Source of the DNA: Patescibacteria group bacterium
GTDB lineage: Bacteria > Patescibacteriota > Patescibacteriia > Patescibacteriales > WJLG01
DNA length: 37,630 nt
Assembly (NCBI GenBank): GCA_028716485.1
Contig: JAQUPS010000014.1
Coordinates: 1-37,630, forward strand
Reading direction: 5' to 3'
A program made the position numbers and the translations under genes. The notes under the pieces were generated by a model that saw nothing but the letters and a program-made list of their open reading frames with translations, was not told the origin of the DNA and did not search any database. Shown in pieces: positions 28,591 to 37,111 of the stretch (the stretch's first letter is position 1; each line of letters begins with the position of its first letter).

Positions 28591-29377
28591 TCACATAATT
28601 CTCAATCGTCTGATTGCGCCGTTGAATTTAAGAATATAAATGCCAATCGGCAAAACAACATTCTGCCGATTTTGGCCAGAGGGATAATATCCGTTGATGG
28701 ATTTTTTCTCCCGTCCGGAAAGATCATAAATTAACAAGGAGATATTTTTCGCGATCCCCAGACCGAAAACGATTTTTCCGTCTTGCCAAAAAACGCAGTC
28801 GCTATTTTCATTTTTTCGGAAAAGACTGCTGATAGCGGTAATGAAGATGGGAACCATCGCCAGTCGCACTTTTAATGCAATAACCGGTGTTGCCGCAGAA
28901 ACCTATTAGCTGACCGCGTGAAAGACTCTGCCCCTCTTTAACTCTTGTTAAATAGTCAACACCGTCTTTGATCTGATTCGCCATATGGCAAAACCTGCCA
29001 TACGTTCCGTCATTGTAAGCGACAACAACGATGTTGCCAAATCCATAATTATCCACACTGGTAGTGCCAGGAATATTTTTTACCCTAACCACGGTGCAAG
29101 GCGCTGGCGAAACGATTTGATCGCCCCAGGCCAGCGCAAAATCAAAAGCATACATCATTGTCTTGAACTTAGGACTGGCATTATGCGTGGCATTATTTAA
29201 CCCGATTTGATCATCTTTACTCGCCCTTGCCAGCGGGTCGTCATAATTTCCTTGAGTGCATGAATAAGTTTTCCCGATCGGGAATGGCAGCATATACCAT
29301 TCCGGCGGATCGACGGTTTGGCCAGACGCAGCCAAACAGCAAATAAAATACATCTGGAATAAAATCTTGCCTTTCAT
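28591..29377 (-). CDS. M23-like metallopeptidase plus T9SS/Por-like C-terminal domain, split by a frameshift (ORFs 28808..29377 and 28591..28869)
   Basis: N-terminal signal-like MKGKILFQMYFICCLAASGQT; GDGSHLHYRYQQS (HxH); the other frame gives IVFGLGIAKNISLLIYDLSGREKKSI...LPIGIYILKFNGAIRRLRIM. The two join at CTTTTCCGAAAAAATGA. Confidence 0.8.
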
Positions 29378-30287: not shown

Positions 30288-31589
30288 CTAACTAATGCTA
30301 ACAAATTCCTTTCTAATCACTGCTTCAAATATCCTTATAAAGGACTTTATCGCGGAATCACCCGCAATATTTTTCGTTAATTCTTTGATAGTTAACGGTA
30401 GAGATTTTTCCATCCAGCATATGAAACGAAACATTTCTTCGTTGACAACCATTAAATTACCGCCTCCCCTTTTCGATGTAACGGAATAATACCCGTCGAA
30501 TTCATTGCGCCAGCGAAGTTTTCCTCTGAAATTCACGATGGAATTTTCGTTAAAAATAACATTTCTCCGCTTTTTTTCAAAAAAATTAACTGGGCCAATA
30601 GTTAATCGATCCGGTTCATCCAATCGTCCCGTAACCGCCATAGCGTTCGTGCGACAAGCGCCGCGACAAGATTCAACGGCCGCGCAACTCTTACAAATGC
30701 CGGGAACCGTACCATTGTTTCTGTAAACGGCCATCTTATCCCAAATCGACTCCATTGATTCTTTAAATAAGTTGCCGTAAACAATGGGATTGTGAGGACA
30801 AGGACGGACATCTCCAATATTGGAAATATTAACAGTCATTCGGCCAGCCTGACAAGTTCGGTACTTAAGCAAGGGACTACTCCTCTCCCACCACCAAACC
30901 GGAAAAAAACATTTAGGCAGCGCGACCAGAGTGTCAACTTCCAAACCAAGGACATCGGCGCACCAACGTAAATCTTCCAATAAAACAATAGTCTGTTTTT
31001 TACTGAGCAAACCATCTAAGTCAGGATGCTCAACATTCAAACAAGCCGGCGTAACAGAGAAACGTTTAACGCCCATTTTTTTCAAATCTCTCGCGGTACT
31101 TCTGATAAGCGGAAAATTTGTTTGCGTCACAACCATGTTAACGAGACATGAAAAATTGGCATCCAACAACATCCTTAACTTTTGGGTAAACTTGTCGTAA
31201 TCGCCAAGGCGCGTAATCTCTCTGTAAATATCCGGCTCGCTTGCCGGGCACGATACCAAAAAACTATCAATATCCGATTCTTTCAATGCCGAAATAATCT
31301 GAGGGGTAAGAAGTAATAGATTAGTATTGACTGATACATACATTCCGGCCGTTTTTGCCAACTCCGCCGCCCTGATTAAAGTTTTTGGACGCGCCAATGG
31401 CTCTCCGCCGGTGATAACAAGCGAGTAAATCCGGTTATCTATCATTTTCCGTATCACCTGAAGAACTGCGTCATCGCTCAAATCATTGGACGCCGGCATA
31501 TTGTCAGTGTCAAAATGGTAACAATGTTTGCAACGCAAATTGCACACATCGGTGATCTCAACCTGTGCCTGAAATGGCAGCCTTAACAT
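30288..31589 (-). CDS. Radical SAM/SPASM peptide maturase A with probable C-terminal PqqD-like RRE
   Basis: 433 aa; CNLRCKHC (CX3CX2C), VITGGEPLARP, SPASM CKSCAAVESCRGAC (CX2CX5CX3C); C-terminal FNENSIVNFRGKLRWRNEFDGYYSVTSK...FICWMEKSLPLTIKEL; SD AAAGGAG. Confidence 0.92.
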   Translation of the reverse strand: MLRLPFQAQVEITDVCNLRCKHCYHFDTDNMPASNDLSDDAVLQVIRKMIDNRIYSLVITGGEPLARPKTLIRAAELAKTAGMYVSVNTNLLLLTPQIISALKESDIDSFLVSCPASEPDIYREITRLGDYDKFTQKLRMLLDANFSCLVNMVVTQTNFPLIRSTARDLKKMGVKRFSVTPACLNVEHPDLDGLLSKKQTIVLLEDLRWCADVLGLEVDTLVALPKCFFPVWWWERSSPLLKYRTCQAGRMTVNISNIGDVRPCPHNPIVYGNLFKESMESIWDKMAVYRNNGTVPGICKSCAAVESCRGACRTNAMAVTGRLDEPDRLTIGPVNFFEKKRRNVIFNENSIVNFRGKLRWRNEFDGYYSVTSKRGGGNLMVVNEEMFRFICWMEKSLPLTIKELTKNIAGDSAIKSFIRIFEAVIRKEFVSIS

Positions 31590-31651
31590 AAAATTCTCCT
31601 TTTTTTGGTATGAATATTATTTTTTAAAGTGCGGGAAATATTTATAAATCC

Positions 31652-32269
31652 TTATTCTATGAATTTAGAAAAATAATCCTTGCTAAACTTAAAACCGTAT
31701 ATTTTGTAAAATTTAGCGGCAAATTGATGTTTGTTGGAAATACACTCCATGCTGTTTATTAATTCTGTAAATTTTTTCTTACCGAATTTTTTCAATAAAA
31801 ATTCAACCCAATATTGGCCAACCATGTATATATCGGAATTTGTCTTCTCAAAATAAGAAAAAACATCTAAAAGTTTGTCTTTATACCCCCTCGACAATAC
31901 TAATTTTTTACCCGAGATATAACAAGCCAGCCCTTCATTTAACCATGAAGGATAATGGCTCTTGGTTATTCGGGTATAAAACGCATGACAGTATTCATGT
32001 TTTAAGATGCGCCGGAACTCATCTTCTTTATGGCTGGATTCTTTTTCGAAAACCATAGGATTTAAAAGATAAATATTGCCATGTTTAAAAGCTCCGACAA
32101 ACCAATTTTCTGTTTTTTTATCAAAAATAAAATCCAAATCCTTTCGGTGGTCAACTAAAAATAACAATGGCTCATCGGCCTTAAGATTAAAAAAGACGCT
32201 CAATTCTTTGTTGATTATTTTGAGAAATTTTTCCAGCCCCTTGTTAAAATTGGCCGATTTTACTTTCAA
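31652..32269 (-). CDS. HExxH gluzincin-like metalloprotease A
   Basis: 205 aa; LKHEYCHAFYTRITKSHYPSWLNEGLACYISG: HExxH with a downstream NEG-type third ligand. Confidence 0.82.
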   Translation of the reverse strand: MKVKSANFNKGLEKFLKIINKELSVFFNLKADEPLLFLVDHRKDLDFIFDKKTENWFVGAFKHGNIYLLNPMVFEKESSHKEDEFRRILKHEYCHAFYTRITKSHYPSWLNEGLACYISGKKLVLSRGYKDKLLDVFSYFEKTNSDIYMVGQYWVEFLLKKFGKKKFTELINSMECISNKHQFAAKFYKIYGFKFSKDYFSKFIE

Positions 32270-32358
32270 ATACTTTTTTATATATTTATGAATTTAATTT
32301 TTAAAGAGGTCTTCATGAATTTGCAATTTCCATGAAGACCTGGCGCGATTAGCGCGCA

Positions 32359-32472
32359 TTAATCGTTGCTGCCGCTTTCACATTCACACCCAGAACCGCC
32401 ACTCCCGCTGGAATCGCAGTTGCACGCGGCCGAAAAAGTGGCGATTTCCATTTTGTCAAAATCGAACGGCAT
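32359..32472 (-). CDS. Putative RiPP precursor peptide A (37 aa)
   Basis: MPFDFDKMEIATFSAACNCDSSGSGGSGCECESGSND; ATG at 32472 preceded by GAAAGGAGTAATATT. The ORF-track start at 32547 is an unsupported TTG. Confidence 0.8.
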   Translation of the reverse strand: MPFDFDKMEIATFSAACNCDSSGSGGSGCECESGSND

Positions 32473-32604
32473 AATATTACTCCTTTCTTCGCCCATTTCT
32501 TCAAAACAGATTCCTTTGTCGAGATTCTTATGAGCCTCGCTTAGCAAAATGACATGAAATCTGATTAATTATTATGGGGCTTTTATTGAAAAGGTCATGA
32601 GTAG

Positions 32605-32633: not shown

Positions 32634-32663
32634 ATTAAATTTTTCACATGACTAAAAATTTTC

Positions 32664-32863
32664 AAAAAGAAAAAGGCTTGCAACTGGAATGTTGCAAGCC
32701 TTAATAAATGAGCAAGCTGAAATTTATCTGACGATAAATTTTTCAGCCTTAACGTTGCCGCTTACCGACCGGGACACCGTAAGGTAAGTTCCGGAAGGAA
32801 GGGAATGAGCGGAGAAGGAATTGGCGGCGATTTTCAGGCCGCGAAGGTCGAAAGCGCCGACGA
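32664..32863. repeat. Direct repeat D, left copy (terminator plus T9SS-like CTD relic)
   Basis: Matches 35810-36009 at offset 3146, nearly identical to about 32823, then diverged. Confidence 0.93.
32674..32703 (-). terminator. Strong hairpin terminator (left copy)
   Basis: AAGGCTTGCAAC-TGGAAT-GTTGCAAGCCTT; T tract on the minus strand. Confidence 0.85.
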
Positions 32864-32870
32864 CTAAGGA
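32713..32870 (-). pseudogene. Relic 3' end of a T9SS/Por-like CTD protein
   Basis: Translates NSLVVGAFDLRGLKIAANSFSAHSLPSGTYLTVSRSVSGNVKAEKFIVR*; an in-frame TAG sits just upstream and there is no start. Confidence 0.85.
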
Positions 32871-33224: not shown

Positions 33225-33929
33225 ATGAAACGTCTAATATTCAAAAAATACGACACCGAGATAGATACCTCAAATATCAAAGAAAGGTTATTTGGGAAAG
33301 TTAATTTTGGTCAAAAAATTAACAATAACATATACCCTTTCACGTTGGATTTTATAAAAAAATTAAAACTTCAACCCCCAAAAAAACAGGACAAAATTAT
33401 CAGGAAATTTTTAGTTTCAAAACAATTACAAATAATCCTGGAGAACCAAAGGAAGCTGACTAACAAATTGTGGTCTCGAAAACTGGAATCTGAATATTTT
33501 AACTCGACTAAAAAATTTTTAAATATAACTCTTGACGAAAAAGACTGTTTTAAAGCTTATTTTACATACATACTGCTATGCGCCTATTATGTAGATAAAA
33601 AATATTTTTTTATTAGTGCTTGGAATAGTCCATTGTACCATATTAACATAATCGCTCATGAGCTATTGCATCTGCTTTTTATTAAGAATTATAAAAAGTA
33701 TTGCATCAATCAAGGACTGACTGAAAATCAATTTGAAAATTTAAAGGAAGCGTTGACTTTTATTTTAAATGAAAAGGAATATAAAAAGATTGTTATCGTC
33801 AGAGATAATGGTTATCCAGATCATAAAAAGTTTAGGCAATTTCTAAGCAAACAATGGAATAAAAAAAGAAATTTTTCGGAATTACTGGCTTACGGATGCG
33901 AATATTCAAAGAAACACTTCTCTAAATAA
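33225..33929 (+). CDS. HExxH metalloprotease-like protein B
   Basis: 234 aa; INIIAHELLHLLFIKNYKKYCINQGLTENQFENLKEALTFIL; followed by terminator hairpin AAAAAGGATGGATTTGGTCCATCCTTTTT. Confidence 0.75.
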   Translation: MKRLIFKKYDTEIDTSNIKERLFGKVNFGQKINNNIYPFTLDFIKKLKLQPPKKQDKIIRKFLVSKQLQIILENQRKLTNKLWSRKLESEYFNSTKKFLNITLDEKDCFKAYFTYILLCAYYVDKKYFFISAWNSPLYHINIIAHELLHLLFIKNYKKYCINQGLTENQFENLKEALTFILNEKEYKKIVIVRDNGYPDHKKFRQFLSKQWNKKRNFSELLAYGCEYSKKHFSK

Positions 33930-35295: not shown

Positions 35296-35369
35296 TTTAT
35301 TCTCCCAAATGAAGCGGGGAAGGTCATTATTAACCTTCCCCTAAGTTGTTTTTTCCCGCATTTCCCGCA

Positions 35370-35477
35370 TTATTGCGGTCCGCAAGGAAAATTAACGCAG
35401 GCATCACATGAAAGCTGTTTTTTGCCGGTCAGCCGCTTTAAGAGCAGCTTCCGCTGTTTTTTACTCAGCGTTTTCAT
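35370..35477 (-). CDS. Putative RiPP precursor peptide B (35 aa)
   Basis: MKTLSKKQRKLLLKRLTGKKQLSCDACVNFPCGPQ; SD GGGAGGGGG upstream of the ATG; immediately upstream of maturase B. Confidence 0.8.
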   Translation of the reverse strand: MKTLSKKQRKLLLKRLTGKKQLSCDACVNFPCGPQ

Positions 35478-35534
35478 TTTTCTCACCCCCTCCCTTTTGT
35501 TTAGATTAAAACGAACTATCCAATATTTATGCTT

Positions 35535-35798: not shown

Positions 35799-35809
35799 CC
35801 TAACTTATA

Positions 35810-36009
35810 AAAAAGAAAAAGGCTTGCAACTGGAATGTTGCAAGCCTTAATAAATGAGCAAGCTGAAATTTATCTGACGATAAATTTTTCAGCCTTAGTG
35901 CTGCCGCTTACCGACCGGGATACCGTAAGGTAAGTTCCGGAAGGAAGGGAATGAGCGGAGAAGGAATTGGCATTGGCGATTTTCCGGCCCTTGAGGTCGA
36001 AAATTCCGA
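35810..36009. repeat. Direct repeat D, right copy
   Basis: Covers the terminator and the CTD 3' end of the 35870..37111 gene; matches 32664-32863. Confidence 0.93.
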
Positions 36010-37111
36010 CAACTTTATAATCGCCGAGGGGAATGCTCTTGGCAATGAGCGGATTGCGGACGGCAGTGGGAGCGATATTTTCCACCCAGGCGTAATGGCC
36101 GGCGAAAATAACCTTGCCCTCATCGGTGATGGACAAAGCGGTCTGATCGCCCGGCGCCCAGGAATATGTTCCGGCAAGGACTCTGTCCTCGGTCATCGTG
36201 GACAAATCAACCTTGCCAAGTCCGCCTTGACTGGCCGAGAACCACAGGACATTATTTTTGTCTATCCTGATGTTCCCAAAAGCTCCGTCACCTGGCTGGC
36301 TCCTGGTAACAAGATGTTCTGTCCAGACCGTGCCGTCGAATTTAGCCAAACCATTATCATGTAAGTCTTTAAGGCCTATCAACATAGAATCTCCCACCAT
36401 TAATGTGTCAAAGACTTGCCGGCCAAAACTTAACCAAAAATTGCCGTCACGATCAACATCCCCGGAAACAGGGTTCCAAAACTGGGAATACTCAACCCAA
36501 TTTCCGGCGGTGAAACGATAAACTTTTTTGTTATTTATCGCCCAAATCTCGCCTTTCACCACCACTATCTGGTGGATGGTAACACTCAAAGCGTTTGTCC
36601 AGGTCGTGGGCTTGCCGTTGGCATCCAGCGCGGAAACGCCGACACCTTTGTCGGTGCCGACGATGATCCGGTTATTAACCGTGTCGGCATAGACAGTCTT
36701 AATGTAATTAGACGGCAGGCCGTCTTTTACAGAATAGACTGACGTGTCCAGCGAACCGAAACGGATAAGACCGCTATCAGTCGCCACCCAAATATCGCCA
36801 GCCTTACCAAAATCCAAATCGTAAGCGAAATAGTTCGCATAAGCACCCCGCAAAAGCGTAGACACAATAACAGTTTCATAAATAGTAACATCAATATCCC
36901 CAATATACACATTGCCATTGTGCTTCGCAACAAGAAACGGCCGATCCTCTGATACTTCCGTTTTCTTCCAAACTTTCGAGTCTGAAAAGTCCAGACCCGC
37001 CGACACGGTCGCGAACGCGACCAATGCTGCTAACATGGCTAAAACGAATTTCATCAGAAACCTCCTTGGTTGTTGTTTTATTCCTTCTCTTTTGTTGTAA
37101 AGAACCCTCAA
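35870..37111 (-). CDS. Secreted beta-propeller-like protein with T9SS/Por-like C-terminal domain (likely start at MKFVLAMLAALVAF)
   Basis: 413 aa; signal peptide KFVLAMLAALVAFATVSAG; repeats such as IWVATDSGLIRFGSLDTSVYSVKDGLPSNYIKTVYAD; C-terminus YKVVGIFDLKGRKIANANSFSAHSLPSGTYLTVSRSVSGSTKAEKFIVR. Confidence 0.85.
   Translation of the reverse strand: MRVLYNKREGIKQQPRRFLMKFVLAMLAALVAFATVSAGLDFSDSKVWKKTEVSEDRPFLVAKHNGNVYIGDIDVTIYETVIVSTLLRGAYANYFAYDLDFGKAGDIWVATDSGLIRFGSLDTSVYSVKDGLPSNYIKTVYADTVNNRIIVGTDKGVGVSALDANGKPTTWTNALSVTIHQIVVVKGEIWAINNKKVYRFTAGNWVEYSQFWNPVSGDVDRDGNFWLSFGRQVFDTLMVGDSMLIGLKDLHDNGLAKFDGTVWTEHLVTRSQPGDGAFGNIRIDKNNVLWFSASQGGLGKVDLSTMTEDRVLAGTYSWAPGDQTALSITDEGKVIFAGHYAWVENIAPTAVRNPLIAKSIPLGDYKVVGIFDLKGRKIANANSFSAHSLPSGTYLTVSRSVSGSTKAEKFIVR

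Follow-up and report, generated by a model that had tools for sequence, protein, structure and literature searches.

The window, i.e. the complete stretch of 37,630 nt analyzed here, belongs to a patescibacterial genome of 1.15 Mb which is 99% complete. It harbors a small group of genes and signals, hereafter cassette B, the features of which are collected in Table 1. A previous sequence-only reading had pointed to an open reading frame (ORF) of 35 codons with a strong Shine-Dalgarno sequence, skipped by the annotation and located directly upstream of the gene for a radical-SAM maturase. This observation is real and goes beyond chance. The frame translates into MKTLSKKQRKLLLKRLTGKKQLSCDACVNFPCGPQ followed by a stop codon, starts with ATG and is preceded by GGGAGGGGG at a distance of 8 nt; the maturase B gene is the next one on the same strand and begins 74 nt 3′ of the ORF. 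A GTG at position 35486, three codons earlier, is a possible alternative start but falls within the Shine-Dalgarno sequence. With the boundary between leader and core placed at the first cysteine, the peptide consists of the basic and amphipathic leader MKTLSKKQRKLLLKRLTGKKQLS and the core CDACVNFPCGPQ, whose three cysteines show the spacing C-x2-C-x4-C given before. The promoter TTGCAT-N17-TATAGT proposed in the same reading did not hold: the letters exist, but eight promoter-like sites were found against 9.7 expected in shuffled sequences and this site scores below the threshold of the promoter scan, so that the promoter argument carries no weight.

Table 1. Features of cassette B and its flanks; positions refer to the window.
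Feature	Position	Strand	Remarks
Left direct repeat	32656..32865		Remnant of a gene 3′ end with terminator
Gluzincin-like peptidase, 234 aa	33225..33929	+	H145, E146, H149, E175; convergent with maturase B; probable leader peptidase
Maturase B, radical SAM/SPASM, 441 aa	33970..35295	-	RRE-like domain 1-75; CX3CX2C 90-97; SPASM Cys 332, 350, 391, 394, 400, 404, 423
Stem-loop GGGGAAGGTTAATAATGACCTTCCCC, 11-bp stem	35316..35341	-	Between precursor and maturase B; probable attenuator
Precursor peptide B, 35 aa	35370..35477	-	Leader MKTLSKKQRKLLLKRLTGKKQLS 35477-35409; core CDACVNFPCGPQ 35408-35373
Shine-Dalgarno GGGAGGGGG of precursor B	35486..35494	-	From sequence
Right direct repeat	35802..36014		3′ end of the 35870-37111 gene with terminator

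Two further elements, a hairpin and an HExxH peptidase, were absent from the earlier account. The hairpin in the gap between precursor and maturase gene has a folding energy with a z-score of -3.6, and a strong hairpin occupies the corresponding gap at most homologous loci, the energy lying at least two standard deviations below that of single-nucleotide shuffles in about 26 of the 33 gaps folded. We infer that this arrangement fits an attenuated read-through from a plentiful precursor message.

Cassette B is bracketed by two direct repeats of 91-96% identity, the sole two copies in the genome, which represent the 3′-terminal part of a gene that encodes a sorting tail similar to those of the type IX secretion system (T9SS), together with its terminator. 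The right-hand repeat and its gene found no match in the two nearest genomes. The GC content is uneven, with 28% for the peptidase gene, 38% for maturase B, and 47-49% for recG and radA. Repeats and uneven base composition fit a patchy gain and loss, and recombination between the repeats could lead to loss or exchange of the cassette. T9SS-type C-terminal tail-like sequences are encoded by 35870-37111(-) and 28591-28869(-), the first of which matches TIGR04183 with 15.5 bits, below the cutoff. Further to the left, cassette A (30288-32472(-)) comprises the radical-SAM/SPASM protein A, a second HExxH peptidase (31652-32269) and the acidic peptide MPFDFDKMEIATFSAACNCDSSGSGGSGCECESGSND, the start of which is near 32472 and not at 32547. 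Relatives of radical-SAM protein A in other Patescibacteria adjoin acidic Asp/Cys-rich peptides and those of maturase B peptides with leaders related to that of precursor B, which supports the earlier suggestion that the two maturases act on different substrates.

Maturase B matches the Pfam families PF04055 (2e-20) and PF13186 (2e-6), both above the cutoff. C90, C94, C97 and six SPASM cysteines are invariant in the alignment of its homologues and C391 is nearly so; the CX3CX2C motif and the cysteines of the SPASM auxiliary clusters, which mark a radical-SAM/SPASM RiPP maturase at the superfamily level, are thus complete. An AlphaFold2 model based on 28 homologues (pLDDT 92, pTM 0.91) predicts an N-terminal RRE-like domain, a radical-SAM core and a seven-cysteine SPASM domain. 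Within residues 1-75, with pLDDT mostly above 90, strands 7-12, 15-20 and 26-28 are followed by helices 38-40, 43-51 and 59-73, i.e. the three strands and three helices of an RRE. In Foldseek searches, CteB (5why/5wgg), which forms thioether bonds, was the top match and TigE (8vpo) the second. The best NCBIfam matches are peptide or protein maturases, several of them thioether-forming, namely FibroRumin (210 bits), PapB (163), QhpD-type (161) and SCIFF (127). All these scores are below the respective curated cutoffs, and maturase B is therefore akin to these enzymes without belonging to a curated family.

Homologues of maturase B share 24-38% identity with it and are distributed patchily among the Patescibacteria. 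Including the own genome, they are encoded in 8 of 98 near genomes and 19 of 384 genomes of the class; the copies from other genomes of these two sets are 26-36% identical. The same-genus genome G001 lacks maturase B and there is no close orthologue, the best identity being 37-38%, both of which were counted against the proposal made below; a single-protein scan of genome contigs likewise yielded no close relative. In a scan of named genomes, the best 80 loci were retained; they represent Patescibacteria together with a scattering of other phyla. Tree reconstruction with 84 sequences places the window maturase on a long branch near a sequence from Bacteroidetes (L105, 37% identity) and patescibacterial sequences, apart from the true FibroRumin enzymes, with weak support for the exact position. 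Viral contigs contained distant radical-SAM proteins only (best identity 27% over the core domain), so that there is no link to phages, and the best matches on plasmids are of the FibroRumin and PeaB types. One homologue (L015/L037, 6758-8185(-), G153:C3) contains a single TAG codon and is a pseudogene, affected by a sequencing error, or recoded at this stop.

The search for precursors beside these homologues was carried out with a rule applied to all genes of the loci: an ORF of 25-90 aa with ATG start, Shine-Dalgarno sequence and at least three cysteines, ending at most 200 nt upstream of the gene. It was satisfied by 37 of the 75 strong maturase-B homologues, which are not fully independent as a few loci represent one genome taken from two collections, against 12 of 493 other genes at the same loci. 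About half of these 12 are genes for other radical-SAM peptide maturases. The enrichment is not built into the data, since the loci were retrieved by the maturase alone. Conservation of the ORF upstream of maturase-B homologues had been named as a test on which the proposal could fail. The result favors the proposal: the core is not conserved, whereas a leader-related cysteine peptide is present at many homologues. Cores such as CYTSCTRC, CGACASC, CSCACR and CTACSSCRC have cysteine as the sole common element and are otherwise dissimilar. The leaders share a motif composed of a short hydrophobic stretch (often V-P), four residues, an aromatic residue or Arg, and spaced hydrophobic residues. A leader profile built without the window peptide gave 8.4 bits for the window leader, compared to 1.9 +- 1.7 bits for its shuffles, 4 of 1000 of which reached 8.4 bits. 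With a full-length profile of foreign precursors, again leaving out the window peptide, the latter ranked first among the 334 small ORFs of the window (score 14.0 bits, E-value 8e-4; runner-up 5.1 bits). The closest foreign leader, MKQFYVPSKKQRKHVLRMVNTQEGSNLKCCYTSCMRC, is from the Paceibacterota locus L110, which likewise adjoins a radical-SAM gene and a peptidase gene, and aligns with VPSKKQRKHVL to LSKKQRKLLL of the window peptide. At loci with maturases near by tree path, the cores start with LKCGACNSC (L048) or LKCGACASC (L054, L079), compared to LSCDACVNFPC in the window. A search of the own genome with the blind foreign-precursor profile found nothing, although its initial stage may miss so short a query; an own-genome match to a profile containing the window peptide was discarded as evidence because the query alignment included that peptide.

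Peptides of other types occur at some loci. At L064, L066, L069 and L075, from bins assigned to Kerfeldbacteria, Alphaproteobacteria, Thermotogae and Bacilli, peptides of ASYCCE or AYCCES type (repeated in L064 and L066) adjoin the maturase-B homologue, mostly together with the peptidase. At L092, L107, L111, L114 and L122, genes for peptides of 61-66 aa with CGVxxCCP near the N-terminus precede that of a more distantly related maturase; the single peptide checked had no NCBIfam or Pfam match.

The pairing of precursor and maturase assumed in the sequence-only reading has gained support from the recurrent genomic association, the common leader motif, the recurrent hairpin and the predicted N-terminal RRE-like domain. 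A cognate precursor next door, as is characteristic of a radical-SAM/SPASM RiPP maturase, is present, and the adjoining enzyme very probably acts on the 35-aa peptide as its substrate.

The protein encoded by 33225-33929 has no significant relative in Pfam, NCBIfam, PDB sequence or PDB fold searches; one member of its family weakly resembles DUF5700 (1.3e-4). H145, E146, H149, E175 and Y197 are invariant in an alignment of 19 sequences, and E175 lies in the helix next to the HExxH helix of the predicted model, as in gluzincins, so that HExxH and a downstream Glu as predicted third zinc ligand are present at the level of sequence motifs. It appears to represent an undescribed gluzincin-like family. 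This family occurs in 42 of 384 genomes sampled across the phylum, and its genes adjoin maturase-B homologues in many lineages in downstream, upstream or convergent position: a peptidase gene lies within 1.5 kb of the homologue at 21 of 33 patescibacterial loci, compared to 4 of 50 loci from other groups. The window peptidase is most similar to the copies of L054, L079, L050 and L048 (30-33%), and peptidase and maturase seem to travel together, since the maturases of these loci are likewise among the nearest. A second copy in the own genome (L155, 3244-4005(-), G000:C22) had no detectable maturase-B homologue within the 9 kb read. The family also adjoins Asp/Cys-rich peptides, e.g. MIASTLPRIVVLSDQKGDECDRECDCIELCDCDSCDCHDCDCDVCDD, mostly with a different radical-SAM type (L169, L172, L182, L187, L188, L192).

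Among known systems, FibroRumin (maturase TIGR04136, cysteine-rich precursor TIGR04135) provides the top NCBIfam match of maturase B and shares the order of precursor and radical-SAM gene; true precursor leaders (L083, L086, L098) have a comparable Y-x2-h-[FY]-G-x-I motif. Membership of cassette B was nevertheless rejected for both components, as maturase B attains 209.8 bits with a TIGR04136 cutoff of 400 and scores of 462-808 for true members, and precursor B has no TIGR04135 match at E<=1 compared to 59-65 bits for true members. In addition, precursor B is basic with three cysteines whereas FibroRumin precursors contain many, and the true loci L083, L086 and L106 lack such a peptidase within 1.5 kb. 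The CteB/SCIFF ranthipeptides (5wgg, 5why; TIGR03974) resemble cassette B in the whole fold of the maturase (RRE, radical-SAM, SPASM) and in the small upstream cysteine peptide, but maturase B misses their cutoff (127 against 425 bits) and the core has three cysteines instead of six in 45 residues. The second-best match, PapB of the freyrasin-type ranthipeptides (NF047865, 163 bits), has a cutoff of 340, and the CX3D/E motifs described for PapB-type ranthipeptides (PMC9413430) are missing from the core of precursor B. Since PapB accepts Cys-Asp spacings from 0 to 6 (PMC9413430), a C24-D25 link in precursor B would be allowed. Metalloproteases acting on RiPP leaders include members of M1, M16, M61, M103 and M50 (reviewed in PMC10885120). 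A zinc-motif peptidase encoded with RiPP genes is also found in cassette B; it differs from them by lacking a significant sequence or fold match, its fold showing a weak and non-significant resemblance to an M61 member from Myxococcus fulvus and to selecase.

Taken together, we favor, with a probability of roughly three in four, a RiPP cassette that resembles FibroRumin, is of the thioether type (ranthipeptide-like) and brings its own leader peptidase. The ORF would encode a minimal RiPP precursor, whose leader would dock on the RRE-like domain at the N-terminus of maturase B, and this domain in turn would present the core to the radical-SAM/SPASM active site. There, 5′-deoxyadenosyl-radical chemistry would most likely link at least one cysteine thiol to a nearby residue, forming a thioether with a loss of 2 Da per link; as a chemical class, ranthipeptides have thioethers between a Cys sulfur and a non-alpha carbon. 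These steps are proposed on the basis of fold and homology. Afterwards, the convergently encoded peptidase would most likely cleave off the leader, a step suggested by its association with the maturase and its intact zinc-site motif, while the hairpin would probably hold the level of precursor mRNA above that of maturase mRNA. The data demonstrate the ORF, the order of the genes, the kinship of the leaders, the recurrent association, the completeness of the cofactor-ligand and zinc-site motifs, and the folds as predictions; leader binding, cross-link type, cleavage and export we infer, the chemistry from homology.

Several other explanations were considered. A chance reading frame in the 5′ leader region of maturase B would account for a length of only 35 codons, a core that is not conserved, and the lack of a close orthologue, but is highly improbable in view of the Shine-Dalgarno sequence, the first rank in the blind profile search, the downstream hairpin and the identical gene order at many loci. 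Another alternative is a true precursor-maturase pair with a non-thioether modification. As a group, SPASM maturases carry out C-C and C-O cross-linking, epimerization and other reactions, maturase B stays under every curated family cutoff, and TigE ranks second among solved proteins; we regard this alternative as unlikely because cysteine is the only element kept across unalike cores and the nearest solved structure, CteB, is of a thioether-forming enzyme.

Equally doubtful to us is that the peptidase acts elsewhere, e.g. in regulation or immunity, and that a housekeeping protease or the export process takes off the leader. The solitary second copy in the own genome, the absence of a peptidase within 1.5 kb at about a third of the patescibacterial loci and the lack of a characterized relative would agree with this, but the tight association with two radical-SAM types and their cysteine-rich peptides and the intact gluzincin zinc-site motif argue against it. 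As to the product, a secreted bacteriocin or signal is our guess by default; the window contains no evident transporter, which was counted against the proposal, and the only C39-type transporter/peptidase in the own genome is a single short domain that lies unlinked on a different contig. A modified peptide that remains intracellular and serves as a redox or metal-binding cofactor would suit the very short three-cysteine core, the missing transporter, and the NCBIfam matches of maturases B and A, which include QhpD-type and PQQ/mycofactocin-type maturases. Hypervariable cores are, however, ill-suited to a conserved cofactor, and this is improbable.

Radical-SAM RiPPs are a known kind of natural product. 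A system that joins a minimal basic precursor to a FibroRumin-like maturase and an undescribed peptidase family is not described for Patescibacteria in the literature searched, which covers a minority of the subscription journals; there, FibroRumin was not mentioned, ranthipeptides were not reported together with Parcubacteria, and no description of such cassettes was found. One metagenome survey reported no biosynthetic clusters in its Patescibacteria MAGs (PMC11613949) and another reported nine in Patescibacteria (PMC8692599). With their tiny genomes, these bacteria are rated poor in biosynthetic clusters and natural-product pathways of this kind are hardly known from them; genes of 35-60 codons are missed by annotation. 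Related precursor-enzyme pairs, often with the undescribed metallopeptidase, recur across these tiny-genome bacteria of the CPR. On balance, the data lean slightly towards a class of radical-SAM RiPPs that is centered on Patescibacteria and combines very small precursors, their cysteine cores being hypervariable and their leader common, with a FibroRumin-like maturase and a dedicated, undescribed gluzincin peptidase; as this peptidase family would also serve a second radical-SAM type with Asp/Cys-rich peptides, these ultra-small bacteria would use it generally for the cleavage of RiPP leaders. Leader profile, hairpin and peptidase ease the discovery of further precursors. If the cassettes are functional, RiPP engineering would gain substrates of very small size as well as a new peptidase family, and CPR bacteria would produce modified peptides that may mediate contact with their hosts or competition around them.
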